Of a stretch of 64,000 nucleotides of DNA, positions 10,592 to 59,875 are shown in pieces; within the stretch, counting starts at the first letter, position 1, and each line of letters starts with the position of its first letter. The notes under the pieces are model-generated. The model was not told the origin of the DNA and searched no databases. It saw nothing but the letters and a program-made list of their open reading frames with translations. The stretch is from NCBI RefSeq assembly GCF_030034735.1, contig NZ_CP125370.1:186001-250000 (forward strand). Direction: 5' to 3'. The position numbers and the translations under genes are program-made. Source of the DNA: Paenibacillus sp. RC334. GTDB taxonomy: Bacteria; Bacillota; Bacilli; Paenibacillales; Paenibacillaceae.

Positions 10592-12211
10592 ATGCGTCGT
10601 AATTGGACTGGTGTATTTGTATTGATCATATTAATGTTGGTGGTAAGTGCCTGCTCTGGCGGGAATTCCGGTTCTTCGTCTGCGACAAACGAAAGTGCAG
10701 CGAATACGAATGCTACAACAGCTGATAACGGGCAACCCAAGGATGGCGGCAATCTGATCATCGGTGTACAAGCCGATCCGGTGGTGCTGAACCCGAACTA
10801 TGCGGGTGACCGGGTGAGTCTGACGATAGATCAGGCGATATTCGCACCTTTGTTTCAGGTGAACAACGGCAAGAAGACATTCTATCTGGCAGATAGCCTG
10901 ACTCCTTCGGCAGACAAGCTGACGTACACGCTGAAGCTGAAAAAGAATCTGACTTGGCATGATGGCGAGAAGCTGACAGCTGACGATGTGGTTTTCACGA
11001 TTAATAAAATTTTGGACGAGAAGCAGCATAGCTTTTTGAGAAGTAATTTCATGATTAACGGCAAGCCGGTTCAGGTGAGCAAGGTTGATGATACAACAGT
11101 GGATTTCAAGCTTCCGCAGGCAGCTCCTGCTTTTGAAGCGGCGCTGGTACAGGTATCCCCGATTCCGAAGCATATTTTCGAGAACGAAGCGGATATTGAG
11201 AAAAGCACGAAAAACAACACTCCAGTCGGTTCCGGCCCGTTCAAGTTTAAAGAATACAAAACTGGTGAGTACGTGACACTGGAACGGTTCGATAACTATT
11301 TTGGTGGCAAGCCGCATCTGGACTCTGTAACGTACCGAGTTGTGAAGGATTCGAATGCTGCGAGCTTGGCGCTCCAGAATGGCGAGATTAACGTCAACTA
11401 TGTAGACCCGCAAAACGTGGATACGATTAAAGCAACCGATAAGTTCGATATTTACCCTTACAGTGAAGGCCGCTTGGCTTACCTGATGTTTAATGAAAAC
11501 AGCGACACAAAGCAGTTGAACAAAAAAGAAGTGCGTCAGGCGCTCTCATACGCATTGAATCAGGATGAGTTGATTCAGGTATCTTATGGCTCCAAGGATT
11601 ATGCTGATACTGCGAAGTCTGCTTTGACACAGGACGTGCTGTATCACACGAACGATGTTCCATTTTTCAATAATGATGTGAACAAGGCGAAAGAACTGCT
11701 GAAATCGGCTGGAGCTGAAGGACTGAAGCTGCGCATTATTATTCCGGGCGGTAATAAGGTGCAAGAGGCACAAGCGCTGTACATTCAGCAGAAGTTGAAG
11801 GATATCGGCGTTCAGTTGGATGTAAACAGTATGGATTCCTCGGCTTGGTCGCAAAAATTCGTCGATACGAATGCCAAGGACTTCGATCTGGCGATCAGCG
11901 GCTATATCATGGGTTATGACCCGGATGCGTACCGTATCTTGTACAGCACCGGATCGTCCTCCAACTATTCGCGTTATTCCAACAAAGAAGTGGATAAGTT
12001 GATGGAAGAAGGCGCAGCGGAGTCGGATACGACCAAACGTGGAGAAATCTACAAAAAGGTACAAGAGATTTTGGCTGATGATGCAGTTATCTACCCGATT
12101 GCTTATACCAAAACGATTGTAGCATTCGACAAGCAGTATGGCGGCATTGATCAGGCTGTGCTGAAACCGGTCGTAATTTTCGAAGATTTGTCCAAAATTT
12201 ATCACAAATAA
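10592..12211 (+). CDS. peptide ABC transporter substrate-binding lipoprotein
   Basis: 539 residues. The type II signal peptide ends in the lipobox VSAC, with Cys at residue 21, followed by a Ser/Asn-rich linker. The rest matches the SBP_bac_5 family: GVQADPVVLNP, the YTLKLKKNLTWHDGEKLTADDV block, and TPVGSGPFKFKEY. It would bind oligo- or dipeptides outside the membrane and deliver them to the permeases encoded downstream. First gene of an operon SBP-permease-permease-ATPase-ATPase. A 12-bp hairpin after the stop may let this gene be expressed above the rest. Confidence 0.92.
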   Translation: MRRNWTGVFVLIILMLVVSACSGGNSGSSSATNESAANTNATTADNGQPKDGGNLIIGVQADPVVLNPNYAGDRVSLTIDQAIFAPLFQVNNGKKTFYLADSLTPSADKLTYTLKLKKNLTWHDGEKLTADDVVFTINKILDEKQHSFLRSNFMINGKPVQVSKVDDTTVDFKLPQAAPAFEAALVQVSPIPKHIFENEADIEKSTKNNTPVGSGPFKFKEYKTGEYVTLERFDNYFGGKPHLDSVTYRVVKDSNAASLALQNGEINVNYVDPQNVDTIKATDKFDIYPYSEGRLAYLMFNENSDTKQLNKKEVRQALSYALNQDELIQVSYGSKDYADTAKSALTQDVLYHTNDVPFFNNDVNKAKELLKSAGAEGLKLRIIIPGGNKVQEAQALYIQQKLKDIGVQLDVNSMDSSAWSQKFVDTNAKDFDLAISGYIMGYDPDAYRILYSTGSSSNYSRYSNKEVDKLMEEGAAESDTTKRGEIYKKVQEILADDAVIYPIAYTKTIVAFDKQYGGIDQAVLKPVVIFEDLSKIYHK

Positions 12212-12225
12212 GACAGGGTTTTCAA

Positions 12226-12257
12226 AAAATAAGCTGGGAGAACCAGCTTATTTTCTT
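12226..12257 (+). terminator. intra-operon hairpin between binding-protein and permease genes
   Basis: aaaataagctgg (12226-12237) and ccagcttatttt (12243-12254) form a perfect 12-bp stem with loop gagaa, followed by cttcg. As a partial terminator or RNA stabiliser it would raise binding protein over permease levels. Confidence 0.65.
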
Positions 12258-12284
12258 CGAGAACAGCAAGGGGAAGAGAAACGT

Positions 12285-13235
12285 ATGAGACAACTCATCG
12301 CCAGAAGATTGCTGCAAGTTATACCGATGCTATTTTTCGTATCCATCGTCTGCTTCGGCTTGATCAAGCTGGCTCCAGGTGATCCGGTTCTCTCTTTTGT
12401 TACACCGAATATGCATCTGGAAGATATCGAACGTATGAGGCACAGCTTGGGGCTGGATCAGCCTGCTTATGTGCAGTACATGTTATGGCTCAAAAAAAGT
12501 CTCACAGGTGATCTGGGTTACTCGCTGATTAATCACCAGCCTGTACTGGATCAAATTCTGGATCGCCTCCCGGCTACCGCCGGATTAATGGGCGCATCCA
12601 TAATACTGGCTGTCCTGATTGCCATTCCACTCGGCTTGACGGCTGCGGGCAATCGGAACCGCTGGATCGACAAGCTGATTAACCTGATGTCGTACATCGG
12701 GATTTCTGTACCGCTGTTTTGGCTCGGCATTTTACTTATTTATTTGTTTGCTATTTATCTGCATTGGCTTCCAAGTACGGGGATGCGGACCATTGGAACG
12801 GACTCGGCGCTTGATGTGATCAAGCATGGGATTTTACCGTGTTTTGTACTGGCCTTCGGATTTTTATCTGTGTATGTGAGGTATATCCGTTCCAGTACAA
12901 TAACGCAGCTCAAGGAAGAATACGTGCAGATTCAATATGCGTTCGGGTCTGGAAAACGACTGGTTTTATTTCGGCATGTGCTCAAGCATGTACTACTGCC
13001 TATCATTACGCTGCTCGGTATGTCGGTTGCGGATCTGGTAGCCGGAGCCATCGTGACCGAGACGGTATTTTCCTGGCCGGGCATTGGCTCGCTGGGTATG
13101 ACGGCGGTAAAAGGGATGGATTATCCCGTTATCATGGGCATTACACTGTTTTCCGCCCTGCTGCTGATCATAGGCAATCTGCTAGCGGATATTTTATACA
13201 GCATCGCGGACCCGAGAATTAAATCAACGAGGTGA
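12285..13235 (+). CDS. peptide ABC transporter permease, OppB/DppB type
   Basis: 316 residues, six hydrophobic segments. N-terminal IARRLLQVIPMLFFVSIVCF and the periplasmic-loop pattern LAPGDPV are typical of OppB-type subunits. The EAA loop lies in TQLKEEYVQIQYAFGSG, the site that contacts the ATPase. The C-terminal GAIVTETVFSWPGIG is a strong family signature. The start follows aggggaagagaaacgt. The stop is four bases before the next gene, so the two permeases are translationally linked. Confidence 0.93.
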   Translation: MRQLIARRLLQVIPMLFFVSIVCFGLIKLAPGDPVLSFVTPNMHLEDIERMRHSLGLDQPAYVQYMLWLKKSLTGDLGYSLINHQPVLDQILDRLPATAGLMGASIILAVLIAIPLGLTAAGNRNRWIDKLINLMSYIGISVPLFWLGILLIYLFAIYLHWLPSTGMRTIGTDSALDVIKHGILPCFVLAFGFLSVYVRYIRSSTITQLKEEYVQIQYAFGSGKRLVLFRHVLKHVLLPIITLLGMSVADLVAGAIVTETVFSWPGIGSLGMTAVKGMDYPVIMGITLFSALLLIIGNLLADILYSIADPRIKSTR

Positions 13236-13239
13236 ACTC

Positions 13240-14085
13240 ATGAATCGGAGCAAATGGCGCAACATCGGGATCGAGCTGATGACGAGCAAAACGGGCGCCG
13301 CCGCCCTCATACTATTGATCGTATTCTCGCTGGGGGCAATCTTCGCTTTTTTGTCACCGCAGGACCCGAACAAGCTGAACGTGCTGGAGCGTCTTCAACC
13401 GCCGGGAGCGGCACACTGGTTTGGAACGGATGACTACGGCCGAGACTATTTTACAAGGGCGCTGTACGGCGGTCGTGTATCTTTGCTGGTGGGCTTCGCG
13501 TCCATGATTATTGCGACCAGTATTGGCGCAGTAGTAGGCATTGTAAGCGGCTATTTCGGCGGATGGATCGATAATTTGCTCATGCGGATTTTGGAGCTGA
13601 TCATGTCGATTCCGTCTTTTTTGGTTATTTTGCTGTTGAGCGTGTTTTTGAAGCCGGGCGTCGGCAATATTATTGTCATTATCGCCCTGCTGATGTGGAT
13701 GAATATTGCCCGGGTGGTCCGGGCGGAGACGATGACGTTGCGGGAACGGGAATATGTGCTGTATGCCAAAGCTTCGGGACAAAGCACATTCGGGATCATT
13801 CTGAAGCATATCGTCCCGAACCTGATTCCGGTGATTATCGTGGGGGCGACGAACAATATCGCTTCAGCGATTATGATGGAATCGTCGCTGAGCTTCCTTG
13901 GTTTTGGTGTGCAACTGCCGAACGCTACATGGGGAAGCATGCTAAATAATGCCCAAGGATATATTGCACAGGCTCCATATATGGCGTTATTTCCGGGGCT
14001 GCTTATTTTACTGACCGTGCTGAGCTTTAATGTTTTGGGGGACGTGCTGCGTGTAGGCTTTGAACCCAAGCTGGTGAAACGATGA
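13240..14085 (+). CDS. peptide ABC transporter permease, OppC/DppC type
   Basis: 281 residues. It has the OppC N-terminal helix, then the signature HWFGTDDYGRDYFTRALYGG, and four to five further membrane segments. The EAA loop REREYVLYAKASGQSTFGII and the terminal SLSFLGFGVQLPNATWG block are diagnostic. It pairs with the upstream OppB-type subunit to make the membrane channel. ATG follows gaggtgaactc. Confidence 0.93.
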   Translation: MNRSKWRNIGIELMTSKTGAAALILLIVFSLGAIFAFLSPQDPNKLNVLERLQPPGAAHWFGTDDYGRDYFTRALYGGRVSLLVGFASMIIATSIGAVVGIVSGYFGGWIDNLLMRILELIMSIPSFLVILLLSVFLKPGVGNIIVIIALLMWMNIARVVRAETMTLREREYVLYAKASGQSTFGIILKHIVPNLIPVIIVGATNNIASAIMMESSLSFLGFGVQLPNATWGSMLNNAQGYIAQAPYMALFPGLLILLTVLSFNVLGDVLRVGFEPKLVKR

Positions 14086-14146
14086 TTCACAGCTACAAGA
14101 CCCATGACCAATGGCTCCAGGAGCGACAGAAAGGAGCGAAAACACT

Positions 14147-15175
14147 ATGACTGAACATCTGCTGTCCGTCGAACAGTTGGAGGTTTCCTTTTTCACACGT
14201 GAGGGGGAGAATCAGGCGGTTCGAGGGGTTAGCTTTCATATTGATGCTGGAGAAACGGTAGGAATCGTAGGAGAATCCGGTAGCGGTAAAAGCGTTACAG
14301 CCAAAGCCATCATGTCTATGATTGCCCCGCCGGGCAAGCGGCTGAATGGCGATATTCGTTACCGGGGAGAAAGTCTGACGGCTCTGACGGAAAAGCAATG
14401 GCGCAAAATACGCGGGAACCAGATTGCGATGGTCTTTCAGGACCCGATGACCTCGCTGAACCCGGTCAAGAAGGTCGGCTATCATCTAGTGGAGGTGATT
14501 CGCAGACACCGGGGACTGAGCAAGGAGGCGGCTACGAAAGCCGCTGTGGAGCTGCTGCGACAGGTGGGGATTACCGAGCCGGAGCGCCGTATGAACCAAT
14601 ACCCGCATCAATTCAGCGGGGGGATGCGTCAGCGGGTAATGATCGCGATGGCGCTCTCGTGCAGCCCGGAGCTGTTGATTGCTGACGAGCCGACCACAGC
14701 GCTGGACGTGACGATCCAGGCGCAAATTCTGGAGCTGCTCAAGACGTTGAAGCAGCAATCCGACATGGCGATTGCCCTGATCACCCATGATCTGGGTGTC
14801 GTCGCCCAGGTGTGCAGCCGTGTCATCGTGATGTACGGCGGCATGGTAATGGAGGAGGGGCGCGTGGACGATATCTTTTATCGTCCGGCCCACCCGTATA
14901 CGCAGGGCCTGCTGCGCTCTGTGCCGCAGCGCACGAACGGCTTCCGCGAGCGGCTGGTGCCGATCGAGGGCACGCCGCCGGACCTGCTGGACCCGCCGTC
15001 GGGCTGTCCGTTCATGGAACGGTGCCCGCACGCGTTTGCCCGCTGTGTAGAGCGGCCGCCGATGGTGGAGCTTCGCCCGGATCAGCGGGCGGCCTGCTGG
15101 CTGAACGAGCCGGACGCTGTGCCTGCCGGAGTCTACGAGACGCCCGAAGCGGGCCATGTGGAAGGGAGGGTTTAA
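14147..15175 (+). CDS. peptide ABC transporter ATP-binding protein, OppD/DppD type
   Basis: 342 residues from the ATG at 14147, preferred because aaaggag sits 10 bases upstream. An earlier in-frame ATG at 14111 would add 12 residues. Walker [16 protein letters not shown] loop [13 protein letters not shown], signature [12 protein letters not shown] and Walker [13 protein letters not shown] are intact. The C-terminal oligopeptide extension includes the Cys-rich [14 protein letters not shown] segment that in relatives binds an Fe-S cluster. Local GC content rises strongly at its 3' end. It energises the importer with the next gene product. Confidence 0.93.
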
Positions 15176-15176
15176 C

Positions 15177-16139
15177 GTGAGTGAAGTGAGCAATGCAATG
15201 GGCGAAAGTCAGCCCCTGGTGGAGGTACACCAGCTTAAGAAGCATTTTGTAACAGCCAAGGATCTGTTGGGACGCAGCTCGGAGGTGCTCAAGGCGGTTG
15301 ACGGCGTGAGCTTCCAGATCAAGCGTGGTGAGACGTTCGGATTGGTCGGCGAGTCGGGCAGCGGTAAATCGACGGTTGGACGCTGCCTGACGCGGTTATA
15401 CGATTATACGGAAGGAACGGTGCGCTTTGACGGTCAGGATATTTCCAAACTGAACGATAAGCAGCTCAAGCCGCTGCGTCGGCGCATTCAGAGCATTTTT
15501 CAGGACCCGTATTCCTCGCTTAACCCGGGTATGAACGTGCTCGACCTGATTGGCGAGCCGATGGATATTCACAGATTGCATCAGGGCAGTGAGCGTAAGG
15601 ATGCCGTCGTGGCTTTACTTGAAAAGGTCGGACTGAAGCGGGAGCACTTGTACCGCTACTCCCATGAATTCAGCGGCGGACAACGCCAGCGGATTTCTAT
15701 CGCGCGTGCTTTATCCGTGAAACCGGAGTTTATCGTATGCGACGAACCGATTTCGGCGCTGGACGTGTCTATTCAGGCACAGGTCATTAACACGCTGGAG
15801 GATCTCCAGCAGGAATTCGGGCTGACGTATCTGTTCATCGCCCATGATTTGTCGATGGTGCGGCATATTTCAGACCGGATCGGTGTGATGTACCATGGAC
15901 GATTGGTGGAGGTAGCCGATGCAGATGAGCTGTATGAGCAGCCAGCCCATCCATATACACAGGCGCTGCTGTCCTCTATCCCGGTGCCTGATCCGAGAGC
16001 AGCCGGAGAGCGGGACGGTTTTGGGGCGGGGTTTGCCCAACCAGACGGTTCTTTGGCATGGGACAAGGACGGTGAGAGTGCCGCTGAGCTGCGTGAAATC
16101 AGTCCTGGCCATTATGTAGCGTACCCGGTTAACCGTTAG
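15177..16139 (+). CDS. peptide ABC transporter ATP-binding protein, OppF/DppF type
   Basis: 320 residues from the GTG at 15177, placed six bases after gggaggg and one base after the preceding stop. An ATG at 15156 is an alternative that would overlap the upstream gene. Walker [16 protein letters not shown] loop [13 protein letters not shown], signature [12 protein letters not shown] and Walker [13 protein letters not shown] are complete. The N terminus [20 protein letters not shown] is typical of the F-type partner. It forms an asymmetric ATPase pair with the upstream D-type subunit. Confidence 0.93.
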
Positions 16140-35328: not shown

Positions 35329-36747
35329 ATGGCGGAGAACCGGGAAATAGCCAAAGAAGTGATCCAAGCAATCGGTGGGAAGGATAATATTGAGTCCTTT
35401 GCTCACTGCGCGACACGCCTGCGGATTATGGTGCATGACAAGGAGAAGATTGATCAGAAAAAGGTCGAAGAAATCGACAAGGTCAAAGGAGCTTTTTTTA
35501 ACTCGGGACAGTATCAGATTATTTTTGGTACAGGTACGGTCAATCGGATTTTCGAAGAAGTCGAGAAGCTCGGATTAACCGGAACATCTAAAGAAGAAGT
35601 GAAGAGTCAGGCGAAAAAGGAAGGCAACGTCTTCCAACGCTCCATTCGTACCTTTGGCGACGTATTTGTACCGATCATTCCGGTGCTGGTTGCTACGGGG
35701 CTGTTCATGGGATTGCGCGGTTTGCTTACCCAGCCGCAAATTCTGGCCCTGTTTGGCATGACGCCGCAGGATATTTCACCGAATTTCCTATTGTTTACCC
35801 AAGTATTGACGGATACGGCTTTTGCTTTTCTACCTGCGCTGGTCGCGTGGTCAGCCTTTAGAGTATTCGGCGGCAGCCCAGTGCTCGGTATCGTTCTCGG
35901 TTTGATGCTGGTGAACCCGGCCTTGCCCAACGCCTATGCTGTTGCGGACGGCTCAGCTCATCCCTTGACTATGTTCGGCTTCATCCCTGTAGTCGGTTAT
36001 CAGGGCTCGGTATTGCCAGCGTTCTTCGTGGGTCTGATCGGAGCCAAGCTGGAACGGGGGCTGCGCAAACGGGTACCCGAAGCGCTGGATCTGATTCTTA
36101 CGCCATTTTTAACACTGTTGATCATGATTATACTGGGGCTGTTTGCCATCGGTCCGGTTTTCCATTCTCTCGAAGAGTGGGTACTGCAAGGAACGACGTT
36201 TGTACTGGATTTGCCTTTCGGTATCGCAGGGATTGTCATCGGTTTTCTGCATCAGATTATCGTAGTTACGGGTGTGCATCATATATTTAATTTTCTGGAA
36301 ATTCAACTGCTCGAAAAGAATGGCGTAAATGCCTTCAACGCGATCATTACTTGCGCTATGGCTGCCCAAGGTGCGGCTTGTCTGGCAGTTGGGCTGAAAA
36401 CGAAGAACAGCAAGCTGAAGGCGTTAGCGCTTCCTTCCTCGTTGTCCGCTTTTCTGGGGATTACGGAGCCGGCTATTTTCGGTGTTAACCTGAGATATAT
36501 GAAGCCTTTTGTCATGGGGCTGATCGGTGGGGCGGTCGGTGGGTTTATCGCTTCGCTCTTCCATTTGGCGGCTACAGGTATGGCCATCACGGTCATTCCG
36601 GGTACATTGCTCTACATGAACCACCAGCTTCCGCTTTATATCTTGGCGAACGTGGCTGCTATGGCAGTAGCTTTTGTCCTGACCTGGATTTTTGGCTATA
36701 ATGATAAAATGCTGGAGGAAGTCAAAACAGCAGGTTCCTCCAATTAA
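35329..36747 (+). CDS. scrA: sucrose-family PTS permease EIIBC
   Basis: 472 residues from the ATG at 35329, eight bases after gagagga; ATGs at 35308 and 35320 are less well placed. The EIIB domain comes first (VIQAIGGKDNIESFAHCATR, phospho-Cys in AHCATRLRI), then the EIIC membrane domain of the sucrose branch with FGDVFVPIIPVLVATGLFMG and FLGITEPAIFGVNLRYM. No EIIA is fused, so a shared glucose-type EIIA must be used. A 542-bp stretch of its 3' half (36043-36584) recurs at 38251-38792. The operon ends at a long terminator. Confidence 0.92.
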   Translation: MAENREIAKEVIQAIGGKDNIESFAHCATRLRIMVHDKEKIDQKKVEEIDKVKGAFFNSGQYQIIFGTGTVNRIFEEVEKLGLTGTSKEEVKSQAKKEGNVFQRSIRTFGDVFVPIIPVLVATGLFMGLRGLLTQPQILALFGMTPQDISPNFLLFTQVLTDTAFAFLPALVAWSAFRVFGGSPVLGIVLGLMLVNPALPNAYAVADGSAHPLTMFGFIPVVGYQGSVLPAFFVGLIGAKLERGLRKRVPEALDLILTPFLTLLIMIILGLFAIGPVFHSLEEWVLQGTTFVLDLPFGIAGIVIGFLHQIIVVTGVHHIFNFLEIQLLEKNGVNAFNAIITCAMAAQGAACLAVGLKTKNSKLKALALPSSLSAFLGITEPAIFGVNLRYMKPFVMGLIGGAVGGFIASLFHLAATGMAITVIPGTLLYMNHQLPLYILANVAAMAVAFVLTWIFGYNDKMLEEVKTAGSSN

Positions 36748-36884: not shown

Positions 36885-37171
36885 GAAATTTAGTATTTCG
36901 TACCCGGTTACGCATCATGACTTTGATTGCCAGTCAGTTCGGAAGCGCAACGGGTTGCCAGAGTATTTACAATGACATGGACTTGGGTCGTAGAATAGTT
37001 TCCTTCCTTTAATGCGGTATTCCTTGACAAACTGTAGCGATTTTTATCAAATCCCGAAAAACAAAATTTTATGTCAATTATGTAAAAATTTCAAAAAATA
37101 TATATACGATGGTTATTTTGTGTGTTATCATATAGAAGTTGTTAAAATTTAGTATTTGGAGGCAATTATCT
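36885..37171. other. AT-rich region without recognised genes
   Basis: No convincing coding sequence. It must contain the promoter of the following secreted-protein gene, but no clear consensus stands out. Confidence 0.4.
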
Positions 37172-37756
37172 GTGAAAAAACTTCTTGTAACAATGCTAGT
37201 TATTATGTTGGTGGCCATTGGGCTGAATCCTGCAAGCTCTTATGCAGATTCATCTTCATCGGCTAAAGACGCTTCTAACCAGTCCCTATTCCCACCCTAC
37301 TCCTCAATTGTTAATTCGGATACGCTCTTGAGCGGCTTGACGCTCGAGGAGTATAATGAAGCTATAGCCAATGCAGTTCCACTGGAGTCAGTAATTGTAA
37401 AAAGTGATAAAACTCAATCTATTGAAAAAATTTCCCCTATGGCTGTGCCATCTTGGTCATTTAGCCACCTAGGTCGTAACGATGGATTTTGGTCAGATAA
37501 GTTTTCAATTGGTTATGCAGGGTATGTACCTGTAAGTGTGGTGCAGTGGGGAGATGATAGTTCTTGGTCTCAACCTGATGTTGGTTATACACTCGTGAGT
37601 AGAGATTATTTGGGCAAGGTTCGCATGGTTTCTGGAAGATATACAGGCACGAATACAAAATTTGAAATCAAGGTACCAGAAGCTGGACAATACCAAATGT
37701 TAGTAAATAATTTTAATGACTACACTATTTCAGGGAACGGATTCATGGGTTATTAA
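37172..37756 (+). CDS. small secreted protein of unknown function
   Basis: 194 residues from a GTG nine bases after ggagg. Sec signal peptide KKLLVTMLVIMLVAIG, with likely cleavage after SSYA. Following a Ser/Asp-rich stretch, the C-terminal ~95 residues are Trp/Gly/Tyr-rich (WSFSHLGRNDGFWSDKFSIG, then VSVVQWGDDSSW) and look like a compact beta-sandwich. Not recognised. Forms a pair with the next anchored protein, between two copies of a PTS gene segment. Confidence 0.65.
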   Translation: MKKLLVTMLVIMLVAIGLNPASSYADSSSSAKDASNQSLFPPYSSIVNSDTLLSGLTLEEYNEAIANAVPLESVIVKSDKTQSIEKISPMAVPSWSFSHLGRNDGFWSDKFSIGYAGYVPVSVVQWGDDSSWSQPDVGYTLVSRDYLGKVRMVSGRYTGTNTKFEIKVPEAGQYQMLVNNFNDYTISGNGFMGY

Positions 37757-37797
37757 ATTTTGTTAATTGGATTATTTTTGGAAGGGAGGAAGTGAGT

Positions 37798-38145
37798 GTG
37801 AACAAGCGACTCAGACCAGTAGTTATTATTTTAAGTCTAATTGTCGTTGTCGGAGGGGCGGTGGCTGTTATCAAAAGTCAGACCTTTGCGAACAGCAGTA
37901 AGCCTCAAACCCAAACTACCAATGATCCTGACTGGCTCACACCTGAGAAAAAGAAGGAGATAAACGAGAAAGTGTTATCTTCACAAGCAGAAATTATACA
38001 CTCAAAATATGGAGATTTTTTCCCTGTTGAAGTTCCGAATGAGTATCCAAGCGATCAGGTTGCAAATCGGGACAATCAAGAGGAGATAACAGCTCAGACA
38101 AAGCAAATTATCAAGAATAATTTTGTTTACGAAAAAAAAGAGTGA
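37798..38145 (+). CDS. small membrane-anchored extracytoplasmic protein
   Basis: 115 residues from a GTG seven bases after gggagga. One N-terminal hydrophobic segment (PVVIILSLIVVVGGAVAVI, about residues 6-24) acts as anchor or uncleaved signal. The rest is hydrophilic and charged (DWLTPEKKKEINEKVLSSQ). No family recognised. It lies 41 bases after the secreted-protein gene with a terminator 16 bases after its stop, so the two form one unit. Confidence 0.6.
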   Translation: MNKRLRPVVIILSLIVVVGGAVAVIKSQTFANSSKPQTQTTNDPDWLTPEKKKEINEKVLSSQAEIIHSKYGDFFPVEVPNEYPSDQVANRDNQEEITAQTKQIIKNNFVYEKKE

Positions 38146-38192: not shown

Positions 38193-38252
38193 GTGCGCCA
38201 TGCATGGCGGGTAACTAGGCGGTGAAAGTCCGCTATGGGGGCTGACAGTTGC
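38193..38252 (+). mobile_element. 5' stub of a group IIC intron
   Basis: Immediately after the terminator T-run the sequence opens with GTGCGCC, as group II introns do (GTGYG), then gcatggcgggtaactaggc and ggtgaaagtccgctatggg. This order (GUGYGCC, GCAUGG, GGGUGAAAGUCC) matches domain I of the group IIC class, such as the Oceanobacillus intron. Class IIC introns insert just 3' of terminator hairpins, which is the case here. Only ~60 bases remain; no reverse transcriptase or domain V is present. It runs into PTS coding sequence. Confidence 0.7.
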
Positions 38253-38862
38253 CAAGCTGGAGTGGGCGCTTTGCAAACGGGTACCCGAAGCGCTGGATCT
38301 GATTCTTACGCCATTTTTAACACTGTTGATCATGATTATACTGGGGCTGTTTGCTATCGGTCCGGTTTTCCATTCTCTTGAAGAGTGGGTACTGCAAGGA
38401 ACGACGTTTGTACTGGATTTGCCTTTCGGTATTGCAGGGATTGTCATCGGCTTCCTGCATCAGATTGTCGTCGTTACGGGTGTGCATCATATATTTAATT
38501 TTCTGGAAATTCAACTGCTCGAAAAGAATGGCGTAAACGCCTTCAACGTGATCATTACTTGCGCTATGGCTGCCCAGGGTGCGGCTTGTCTGGCGGTTGG
38601 ACTGAAAACGAAGAACAGCAAGCTGAAGGCGTTAGCGCTTCCTTCCTCGTTGTCCGCTTTTCTGGGGATTCCGGAGCCGGCTATTTTCGGGGTCAACCTG
38701 AGATATATGAAACCATTTGTCATGGGCCTCATCGGTGGGGCGGTCGGCGGCTTTATCGCTTCGCTCTTCCATTTGGCGGCTACAGGTATGGCATCTACTG
38801 TTGGCGAAGCTCCATATGTAGCATCAACTGATGAAGTCTTTGCATGTAAGGGGAATTTATAA
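38251..38862 (+). pseudogene. duplicated internal fragment of the sucrose-type EIIC gene
   Basis: 38251-38792 matches 36043-36584 of the sucrose permease gene without indels, with roughly 27 differences by eye (about 95 percent identity). There is no start, and after GMA the sequence diverges into an unrelated tail ending at 38862. Both junctions are abrupt; the left one joins intron sequence. It is non-functional as a permease. Confidence 0.85.
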
Positions 38863-39011: not shown

Positions 39012-39047
39012 AAATCCACGCCGACCAGTTAAGGTTAGCGGGGATTT
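39012..39047 (-). terminator. terminator of the receptor/propeptide unit
   Basis: On the minus strand aaatccccgctaacc pairs with ggtcggcgtggattt with two mismatches, and T residues follow. It comes 18 bases after the propeptide stop. Confidence 0.7.
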
Positions 39048-39064: not shown

Positions 39065-39187
39065 TTAAGCACCTCCAATGGTAACGTAAGGCTGAATACT
39101 ATGGTGGTGGTTAAGTGCTTGATCCGGCACAGTGACAATAAACAAAAAGCTAGCCGCGATGATCAGCAGTACCATTTTTTTCAACAT
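39065..39187 (-). CDS. exported propeptide of an RRNPP-type quorum-sensing pair
   Basis: A 40-residue frame. It begins MLKKMVLLIIAASFLFIVTV, a basic tip plus a hydrophobic core as in Phr/PapR-type pre-propeptides, and ends in a polar tail finishing HHHSIQPYVTIGGA. Its ATG follows ggtgtgg by seven bases and overlaps the 3' end of the receptor gene by 38 bases in another frame, then a terminator closes the unit. In the known family, the tail is released outside, trimmed to 5-10 residues, re-imported by an oligopeptide permease and bound by the cytosolic receptor. The mature form cannot be fixed from sequence. Confidence 0.75.
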   Translation of the reverse strand: MLKKMVLLIIAASFLFIVTVPDQALNHHHSIQPYVTIGGA

Positions 39188-40568
39188 TGTTCATCCACAC
39201 CTTTTCAATAAGATTTAAAAATGCTGCTTTAGTTTCTGGAACCGAATAATCCTGAAAGTGTAGAAATAGGCCCATACAATTTATAAAATAAGTCTCATTA
39301 TTTAGTTTATGATAACTGATCATTGAATACATCAAATGTTTAAAGCCATCAATGTAAGAACCTCGATGTAAATCATAATAAGCTAATTCGTAACCAAACC
39401 ACGCGATATAGTCCGGTATCACCTGTTGAGTATACATATCATCGGATGGAGGCTGTTCAGAAAGAGAACTAATCTCCGTTTCAAACCGTTGAAGTATATC
39501 ATCCACGTCCAATTCAAATCGGTTTGCTGCAATTATAACATTCAACAATTTGGAGATTTCCTCTTGTTCATTAGAGCCTGATGTCGCTGCAATATATTCA
39601 ACATAATCTTGAAGCACGCTTATATCTCCAGACAAAAGCTTATATACGTGAGTATTACCTTCCGCCCAATGTTGAAACAAACCGATCCAGTGTCGGGTAT
39701 CCTCGTCCTTCTCTTCGACCCAATCTAAATTAGCGTAGGCATATGTATAATCTAGAGCTTGTTGAAAATCGCCTTGGGCTTCACAGACACTTGCACACAA
39801 CAGGTCAGCATAGGTGATGTACACAAACATAGGACGACTTAGCTTTTTTTCGGACTCCTTATGCTCTCGTTTCTTCTGTTGATGTTTCATCGAATATTGA
39901 ATTTCCGCTTTCACCTTCATTTTTCGAGCTATTTCATCAAGCCTATCCCATTGACGCAAAGACCTGTACACGTTAGCCAAGTCCTTCAATGCGTCAAGCT
40001 GATCTATTTCATCCAAGCGCTCAACAAAAGCTTCAAATATCGTTGCTGCCCTGAGATTTCGGTTTTGATCGTCTCCAATCTGGATCGTGAATATACGATA
40101 TTGACAGACTGCCAAGCGTTCAGAATGTTGGTACTTCTCCACTTCTGCTACATTCTCATAGAGCACCAGCGCAGCAGCATGTCGTCCTTGTGCCAATAGC
40201 GCTTCTGCAATTTCAAATAGTTTAGGTGAATAGAGTAGATTGTCCATGATTTGTCCAACGATTCGACTGATCGCATCCAGCTTGTCCAGCTCTGCACAAC
40301 GATATAGCAACCGCTCAATTCGACGCATATTGGGAGAGTGTTCGATGATGTAGTCATCTATGAATCGTTCGTAAAAAAAGCCTTCCGGTAAATCCATAGC
40401 CTCAGTGATTAGATCAAGCTGGTTAACAGATATAGGACTATTACCAGTTACAATGCCACTTACTATTCCTCTGTTAATGCCTGCAATATTCCCGAATTGC
40501 GTTAGGCTCAAACCCTCTTGTTTTAGGTATTTGTCTAATTCCGCCCGAATCGTAGGTGTATGCTTCAA
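39150..40568 (-). CDS. HTH-TPR-like peptide receptor, RRNPP family
   Basis: 472 residues from a TTG seven bases after aagggtgg; a GTG 18 bases earlier has no site. The N-terminal helix-turn-helix (IRAELDKYLKQEGLSLTQFG, INRGIVSGIVTG) is of the Xre type. The remaining ~400 residues are helical TPR-like repeats, for example LLAQGRHAAALVLYENVAEV, DALKDLANVYRSLRQWDRLD and CEAQGDFQQALDYTYAYANL. This architecture is that of PlcR, NprR and related peptide-responsive regulators. A short exported peptide gene overlaps its end. Targets are unknown; the secreted proteins nearby are candidates. Confidence 0.82.
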   Translation of the reverse strand: MKHTPTIRAELDKYLKQEGLSLTQFGNIAGINRGIVSGIVTGNSPISVNQLDLITEAMDLPEGFFYERFIDDYIIEHSPNMRRIERLLYRCAELDKLDAISRIVGQIMDNLLYSPKLFEIAEALLAQGRHAAALVLYENVAEVEKYQHSERLAVCQYRIFTIQIGDDQNRNLRAATIFEAFVERLDEIDQLDALKDLANVYRSLRQWDRLDEIARKMKVKAEIQYSMKHQQKKREHKESEKKLSRPMFVYITYADLLCASVCEAQGDFQQALDYTYAYANLDWVEEKDEDTRHWIGLFQHWAEGNTHVYKLLSGDISVLQDYVEYIAATSGSNEQEEISKLLNVIIAANRFELDVDDILQRFETEISSLSEQPPSDDMYTQQVIPDYIAWFGYELAYYDLHRGSYIDGFKHLMYSMISYHKLNNETYFINCMGLFLHFQDYSVPETKAAFLNLIEKVWMNNVEKNGTADHRG

Positions 40569-40738
40569 GTCATAACCACCCTTCACATAAAAATTCCATA
40601 ATTTTATATTCTTTCATTCTATTTTTCTCCAAAATTAACCATATGTCAATATATTTTTTACTAATGTATAAAGGCGAATTTTGGCATATTAATGCATATG
40701 GAAATGGAAAGGACGAGTGATGGAAGCGGAAGTAAGAG

Positions 40739-40834
40739 GGTGAAAAAGCGCACTCCATAAAGAGCGCGACTTGTGAGCGAAGCGCTGGGGCATCGGTAAA
40801 TGATTTCAATCCACGCACTCACATGTAGTGCGAC
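40739..40834 (-). CRISPR. one-spacer type I-C-like CRISPR remnant
   Basis: 40803-40834 on the minus strand is a 32-base repeat, GTCGCACTACATGTGAGTGC then GTGGATTGAAAT, matching the Firmicute type I-C repeat class. A 32-base spacer (40771-40802) follows, then a degenerate terminal repeat (40739-40770) keeping GTCGCGCTC, AGTGCGC and the hairpin. Degeneration of the leader-distal repeat is typical. No cas gene is in the window, so the array is orphaned or a relic. Confidence 0.65.
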
Positions 40835-40835
40835 A

Positions 40836-40887
40836 GCGAAAATGCAGTGATTGATACCCTATTGGTATCAATATCATACATTTTCGC
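40836..40887. repeat. 52-bp near-perfect palindrome abutting the CRISPR repeat
   Basis: Outer arms gcgaaaatg (40836-40844) and cattttcgc (40879-40887) and inner arms ttgatacc (40851-40858) and ggtatcaa (40864-40871) are exact; the stem has few mismatches. It begins two bases from the repeat, on its leader side. Confidence 0.65.
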
Positions 40888-41119
40888 AATAAACGATGCC
40901 GAAAAGGCTTGAATCAAGCATTGACATTCACCCATTACAACCCATCTAAGTCCTTTTCGACAAATTTCGAGGTGTGAAGGAACCGGGGTTTTTATGTGAG
41001 ATTCACATTCGCACTTTATAAAATGAGGTATTTGTTGTCTATCCAGTTGAATCCAACATACATTTAAATACGGAGTTCCGCAAACTTTTCCGCCTTCTCT
41101 TTCCACTGTACAAGACAAG
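40888..41119. other. intergenic stretch, nothing identified
   Basis: No gene, terminator or repeat is convincing here. A Cys-rich minus-strand frame crosses it but has no support (see rejected items). Confidence 0.3.
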
Positions 41120-42011
41120 CTAAACGATCGAAGACCGTTCATCCAGAAATTCGGATGGGGAGCAGCCTGTCAGCCGTTTGAATATCCGATGAAAATAGGA
41201 AACATCACTATACCCCACATACTCTGAAATTTCACGAATCGTCAGTCGGGACTCGGTCAGCATGTAGATGGCGGTTTTAATACGTTGCGTATGTACATGC
41301 TCGCTGATCGTTTGGCGTGTTACCTCGCGCAGCAGTGTGGCTGCGTAGTTGGGCGTTTTACGGATCGCGTCGCCAAGCTCCTCCTTCGTCACCTTTTCCC
41401 GATAATGATTCTGAATATACTGCTTCATATGCTCTACATGCTTCTCTTTATCGCAAGAAACGGCACCCTTGTCCCACTCCTGATTGATATAAATCATCGC
41501 TTCGGTCAGCAAGCAGTCAGCCATCATTGCATAGTAGCTCGGACGCTCCGTCCATTGGTAGTACACCGACTTGATCCGTTCATGCAGCATATCGTAGCAT
41601 CCCAGCTTGATCAGCAACGGCTGGTCTGTATTCAGTAGGGGGGAGTGCGTGGTTCGTACATGTTTTGCGGCAATGTATCACATACTTGGTATGAAAAAGT
41701 GTAGGAATGCTCTTGCCGTAGTAAGGCAAATGTCCGGGCAGAATCAGCGCTTCTCCCTTGCCGAGAATAAACTTGCAACCGTTCACCCAATATACACATT
41801 TTCCAAAGGTAACCAAAATGAACAGTAAGTCATCGTCGCTGCTATTCGGGCCAGCCTTTTCGTACCAGTCTATACCATGGTCCTGTCGCATGTCCGTCAT
41901 TGTAATCACGAGGCCCACTCTCCGATGTCTTAAAAAATTATTGTACTGTAGTACATTCATCATACTATAGTTCATAGTCTTGGCGCACGGGTACAAGTAA
42001 AATAGAACCAT
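41120..42011 (-). pseudogene. AraC-family regulator, frameshifted
   Basis: Two overlapping frames together make one AraC protein of ~290 residues. The N-terminal part (FGKCVYWVNGCKFILGKGEA, LILPGHLPYYGKSIPTLFHT) is the cupin sensor. The C-terminal part (VTKEELGDAIRKTPNYAATL, LTIREISEYVGYSDVSYFHR) is the double helix-turn-helix. The switch is needed at a run of six G (41638-41643 on the plus strand), where a one-base change restores HALP-LLNTDQPLLIKLG. It may be a true mutation, a phase-variable tract or a sequencing error. Divergent from pyruvate kinase. Confidence 0.8.

Positions 42012-56044: not shown

Positions 56045-59875
<3,831 letters not shown>

Follow-up and report, generated by a model that had tools for sequence, protein, structure and literature searches.

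What kind of system is encoded where the gene for an HTH protein is overlapped at its 3' end by a frame of only 40 codons? Such a pair lies in the 64,000-nucleotide stretch of the genome of Paenibacillus sp. RC334 analysed here (the window). A preliminary description took it for a receptor and propeptide of the RRNPP type and called the pair undescribed. The first statement is well supported, both by the TPR-like model of the receptor and by the small frame that accompanies its relatives in 27 of 32 loci. The second does not stand: the Alo family has been published, with a count for a strain of the same species (PMC7425212), and the window's receptor is 34% identical to one of the AloR13 type.

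Alo (AloR-AloP) systems were described in a report of 2020. According to it, P. polymyxa ATCC 842 has 16 Alo loci, identified first through a TPR domain with a short frame downstream and subsequently through homology. The homologues are described as essentially confined to the Paenibacillaceae, and P. terrae NRRL B-30644 is credited with 40 AloR, 27 of them with an AloP. The traits given are an HTH, a TPR domain and a downstream frame of 32-50 amino acids that may overlap aloR; for one precursor, AloP13, the final six residues were inferred to make up the mature form (PMC7425212). AloR is listed among the RRNPP receptor families (PMC10075063, PMC9765709), and a review table enters the function of AloP/AloR of P. 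polymyxa as still to be elucidated (PMC13220807).

We conclude that the locus is an uncharacterised new member of the published Alo family and not a new system. The probability that the pair is an Alo autoinducer locus, AloR-AloP, within the RRNPP superfamily is in our estimate about 0.93. Counted in favour are homology to the AloR13-type receptor, the set of paralogues, selection on aloP and the edges of a conserved cassette at promoter and terminator. Counted against are Pfam HTH and TPR matches below gathering score, eukaryotic proteins among the Foldseek matches and the 4 of 15 aloR genes in this genome that have no overlapping frame.

The receptor gene and the frame that overlaps it

The receptor gene, aloR (39150-40568, minus strand), encodes 472 amino acids counted from a TTG start at 40568, or 478 if translation began at the in-frame GTG at 40586. 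The HTH is placed at about residues 7-60. In Pfam the protein matches TPR_7 (E 1.2e-5) and HTH_3 (E 0.0013), neither attaining the gathering score. Its PHROGs matches are generic transcriptional regulators (best E 3.3e-7), and NCBIfam yields no convincing match (best E 0.031). A profile built from 77 AloR sequences matches, among PDB chains, the HTH of C proteins and SinR at residues ~8-76. The AlphaFold2 model is all-helical, with a mean pLDDT of 88.5 and a pTM of 0.84. By Foldseek it aligns with TPR proteins, the top PDB matches being eukaryotic, and RRNPP receptors tie with unrelated TPR proteins. On the Pfam matches, the profile and the model, AloR has an N-terminal HTH and a C-terminal TPR or TPR-like domain. 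The preliminary description had proposed just such a protein of 472 residues and suggested predicting its TPR repeats; the coordinates agree, and the C-terminal region is indeed modelled as TPR-like repeats forming a helical superhelix.

The small gene, aloP (39065-39187, minus strand), starts with ATG and encodes the putative pheromone precursor MLKKMVLLIIAASFLFIVTVPDQALNHHHSIQPYVTIGGA. Its 40 residues fall within the range published for Alo frames. The two genes share exactly 38 bases (39150-39187) in differing frames. By composition the first 25 residues of AloP are 72% hydrophobic, and the tail reads SIQPYVTIGGA. Within aloR, ten bases 5' of the ATG, lies a ribosome-binding site (AAAAGGTG, 39198-39205, minus strand) that is identical in all eight aligned loci, the window included. 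After aloP comes a terminator hairpin (39012-39047, minus strand; -16.1 kcal/mol, z -2.5) at the 3' edge of the conserved cassette. It is absent from the list of a consensus scanner; in the alignment, read by eye, the stem is kept in relatives with letters changed on both arms. The 40-residue frame, its 38-base overlap in another frame, the signal-peptide-like start, the tail, the ribosome site and the terminator had all been noted beforehand, and all were borne out; the strand, minus for both frames, had not been given. Matches of the 40-residue frame to DUF, photosystem and unknown models in Pfam, PHROGs and NCBIfam (E 0.015-0.29) were judged to be chance.

A short frame with a hydrophobic start might also suggest a membrane-active or toxin-like peptide, with the receptor as its regulator. 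This is extremely unlikely. Variation between paralogues is greatest in the polar C-terminal tail, which tracks the receptor clade, and for nine of 14 related AloP peptides C-terminal fragments are reported to have been detected in the medium (PMC7425212).

Kinship with Alo13 and distance from other receptors

How close is the pair to an Alo system already described? The published AloP13 precursor was searched in 75 genomes of the genus. Five genomes, the window's own not among them, matched at E up to 1, and the best match (L079) is exact. The receptor directly upstream of that exact copy is 34% identical to the window's AloR over 435 amino acids (E 3e-77). The window pair thus resembles Alo13 of Paenibacillus polymyxa in its homologous receptor, the HTH and TPR layout, the small frame overlapping the 3' end, the hydrophobic start and the short C-terminal tail. 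It differs in the mature peptide, SHGRGG in Alo13 and predicted to be VTIGGA here. It also lacks a spo0E-like gene, which in Alo13 lies directly downstream and is reported to be controlled by AloR13 (PMC7425212).

The host, too, is one of the Paenibacillaceae. Judged by its sequence, the window genome is P. terrae or very near, the same species as the genome of P. terrae NRRL B-30644. On contig NZ_JTHP01000005.1 of that strain lies an orthologue whose AloR is 96% identical to the window's and whose AloP differs at 1 of 40 residues and also ends in VTIGGA; it is very probably included in Table S3 of the Alo report (PMC7425212). A receptor search of the window's 5.98-Mb one-contig genome returned 25 match rows, among them 15 full-length, stop-free AloR genes (L001-L011 and L013-L016), the window copy included. 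The other 14 are 32-72% identical to it. Every one of the 75 genomes of the genus gave a match.

That the pair represents a wholly new RRNPP family is scarcely credible. No model in Pfam, NCBIfam or PHROGs labels AloR a quorum-sensing receptor, and the strings VTIGGA and SIQPYVTIGGA occur in none of the papers searched by text; but the near full-length homology to the AloR13-type receptor refutes the idea, the species has already been counted for Alo (PMC7425212), and with its paralogues and orthologues the receptor forms a series that runs from 32 to 96% identity.

Does the pair instead belong with one of the named RRNPP systems? It had been likened to PlcR-PapR and NprR-NprX, and a receptor search against PlcR, NprR, AimR and Rap had been proposed. 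The likeness goes no further than architecture and a broadly TPR-like fold, and fails for sequence. Searches of PDB chains with an E limit of 1, by phmmer with the window's AloR and with the 77-sequence profile, list HTH proteins, antibodies and designed or unrelated proteins, and no RRNPP receptor (PlcR/NprR/Rap/AimR). Membership in the PlcR or NprR families was rejected for want of any sequence match; structure does not separate the candidates, since RRNPP and unrelated TPR proteins tie. In one classification AloR, with nine TPRs, is placed in clan C with AimR, and NprR apart in clan B (PMC12700828). The AimR-AimP (arbitrium) system is phage-borne, whereas nothing phage-like was recognised on reading the frames that neighbour the window locus, and the window's AloR has no sequence match to solved AimR at E up to 1.

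Conservation of aloP and its predicted product

Is the small frame a gene? The preliminary description had proposed looking for a conserved short frame downstream of receptor homologues. One with a hydrophobic start overlaps aloR in those 27 of the 32 loci with a usable receptor (fragments or interrupted copies, L012 and L017-L020, left out): in 21 at exactly -38, in six at other offsets. Five loci have no overlapping frame; one of these, L029, carries a frame 3 bases past a shortened receptor, as seen in a listing of ATG frames with a hydrophobic start. Within the window genome the overlapping frame accompanies 11 of the 15 full-length aloR genes (L016 being doubtful). Three small frames (L006, L008 and L010) are without a GGA-like tail, which we counted against the Alo reading.

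Changes in aloP between orthologues are mostly synonymous. Over the whole frame pS is 0.150 and pN 0.014, a ratio of 0.09, in 15 pairs of six orthologues (L098, a near-copy of L097, and L101, with an indel, left out). The part beyond the receptor stop gives the fairer figure because the overlapping codons are under double constraint; there pS is 0.108 and pN 0.015. The last 11 codons have no replacement in the same 15 pairs. The substitution pattern indicates that aloP is a real gene under purifying selection.

The ending of the precursor follows the receptor. Eleven distinct loci have a receptor sharing at least 77.5% identity with the window's, and in 10 of them the precursor ends in VTIGGA. 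The exception is L055 (receptor 78%), which is a second copy in P. farraposensis and has VTIGGF. Below 77.5% identity VTIGGA occurs in none of 22 loci (four without an overlapping frame) and in none of a further 23 from the named set L050-L078 (several without a frame), in which L050-L054 are the same places as L021, L022, L025, L028 and L029 and were counted once. Endings in these less similar loci include VQHGGA, DQIGGS, AQHGGS and EHIGGA. A protein search with the 40-residue frame gave 17 matches: nine with VTIGGA, one with DTIGGA, one with VTIGGF, one incomplete and five with other endings; the sources that name an organism are Paenibacillus.

By analogy with AloP13, from which its length is taken, the mature pheromone would be encoded by 39068-39085 (minus strand), and AloP is probably trimmed to VTIGGA. 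Near variants in close precursors (DTIGGA in P0002, VTIGGF in P0009 and L055) were counted against this exact cut.

Partial or stop-bearing aloR copies occur in the window genome (L012, L017, L018, L019 and L020), two of them (L018 and L020) still beside an intact-looking aloP; their sequences point to ongoing birth and death of Alo loci. Might the window pair itself be an orphaned, decaying Alo pair, intact by chance and with its signalling lost? No spo0E-like target gene adjoins it, and elsewhere in the genome several copies have been disrupted or come without the peptide. We nevertheless hold this very unlikely, since aloP is under purifying selection with a C-terminus nearly invariant across species, and promoter-like element, ribosome site and terminator have all been kept.

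The conserved cassette, its surroundings and its targets

A promoter-like element of aloR, TTGACA-17-AAAAAT, was located by alignment and scanner at 40621-40649 (minus strand), near the 5' edge of the conserved cassette; by the scanner, promoter-like sites are no commoner in the region than in shuffles. When the eight orthologous loci are aligned, similarity begins shortly before this element and ends past the terminator hairpin. Outside these edges, four relatives (L096-L099) retain parts of the window's neighbourhood, and three (L100-L102) have, within their 14 kb, none of 10 neighbouring frames tested. Relatives of aloP are also found on Paenibacillus plasmids (8 records). Given the different flanks and the plasmid records, the promoter-aloR-aloP-terminator unit appears to move about as one cassette; no mobile element was found to carry it.

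Just upstream of aloR lies a shrunken CRISPR array (40740-41027, minus strand) that consists of a single complete repeat (GTCGCACTACATGTGAGTGCGTGGATTGAAA...), a single spacer and, at its end, a degenerate repeat. It sits beside a leader-like stretch, and 40803-41027 shares 82% identity with the beginning of one of the genome's main arrays. Repeats stand at the same place in L096 (five, ending at the contig end) and L099 (nine), the degenerate last repeat included; the window genome has its main arrays (30 pattern matches), together with a Cas5d gene, at 2.296-2.319 Mb. Further on, an AraC-type regulator (41120-42011, minus strand) reads in the window as two overlapping frames, 41580-42011 and 41120-41617. 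By match coordinates both parts are in one frame in L097-L099, so the window copy looks frameshifted. On the other side, 555 bases of a PTS transporter gene occur twice in direct orientation (36030-36584 and 38238-38792, 94.4% identical). Between the two copies lie two uncharacterised genes, 37139-37756, whose product has a signal-like start, and 37792-38145, neither with an NCBIfam match. The second PTS copy and both genes are present in L096, the two genes only in L097 and L098, and neither in L099. Elsewhere in the window a frame of 1262 residues (56045-59833, minus strand) consists mostly of collagen-like G-x-T triplets.

What might AloR control? An adjacent spo0E-like gene, a feature of a subset of Alo loci and not a defining one, is absent here. 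A PF09388 search of the window genome gave no match inside the window, and tblastn at E up to 0.01 found no spo0E-like gene in the window or in the seven orthologous stretches while recovering the copy at L003. Spo0E as local target was therefore rejected. The genome as a whole has 15 Spo0E-like matches, 14 of them over the cut-off, and six full-length aloR loci (L003, L005, L006, L009, L010 and L013) have a spo0E-like gene at most 400 bases downstream. With no such gene adjacent and with differing neighbours around the cassette, AloR probably acts on the promoter of its own pair or on genes located elsewhere.

Two dyads were considered as operators. The first, ATTGAC-N5-GTYAAT, lies over the -35 of the window clade. 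It is exact at only one place in its own genome and has one more place with one mismatch; a backward control gave one match. As an AloR operator it was set aside as a weak lead, overlapping a -35 box that is conserved anyway and having its core absent from the other own-genome loci tested. The second, CCA-N5-TGG, adjoins the -10 of other aloR copies and is a candidate AloR operator by its frequency: 11 of 33 loci carry it, against a shuffle mean of 1.4 and a maximum of 4. That set includes close orthologues and counts L011, where the dyad lies further off. The other carriers are L002, L004-L007, L009 and L010 in the window genome and L033, L035 and L036 among relatives; the window clade lacks it. 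In the seven aloR-spo0E gaps examined it is exact only once, inside an aloP.

How would the Alo pair work? From Alo13 and RRNPP systems in general we infer secretion, trimming, re-import and peptide-controlled transcription. On this model a single transcript made from the promoter-like element (40621-40649) would cover both genes, and the ribosome site that lies within aloR would serve for the translation of aloP. AloP would be exported via its hydrophobic N-terminal signal and then cleaved extracellularly, most likely leaving the hexapeptide VTIGGA from its C-terminus. The trimmed peptide would re-enter through an Opp-class importer (oligopeptide permease) and bind the TPR superhelix of AloR, altering DNA binding by the HTH domain. 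As context, the window holds a five-gene ABC importer of the Opp/Dpp/Nik class (10592-16139, plus strand). It had been called complete, and all five parts are there; none of its proteins attains a curated cut-off among the NCBIfam models listed (best 25 for the two ATPases). Its proposed part in re-importing the signal is not supported: because the genome has 19 SBP_bac_5 matches, two being adjoining pieces, it is one candidate among many.

A bolder suggestion, which we regard as doubtful, is that the pheromone cassette of this Alo clade is mobile and self-contained, with no target gene of its own. VTIGGA, common to P. terrae, P. brasilensis, P. farraposensis and others, would then act in trans on the cell's other Alo and Spo0E circuits as an interspecies input to the network.

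For the family, the predicted VTIGGA offers a concrete, testable pheromone for one of many uncharacterised Alo loci. The change in the last six residues as receptor identity falls below ~77% offers a natural series for the evolution of peptide specificity.
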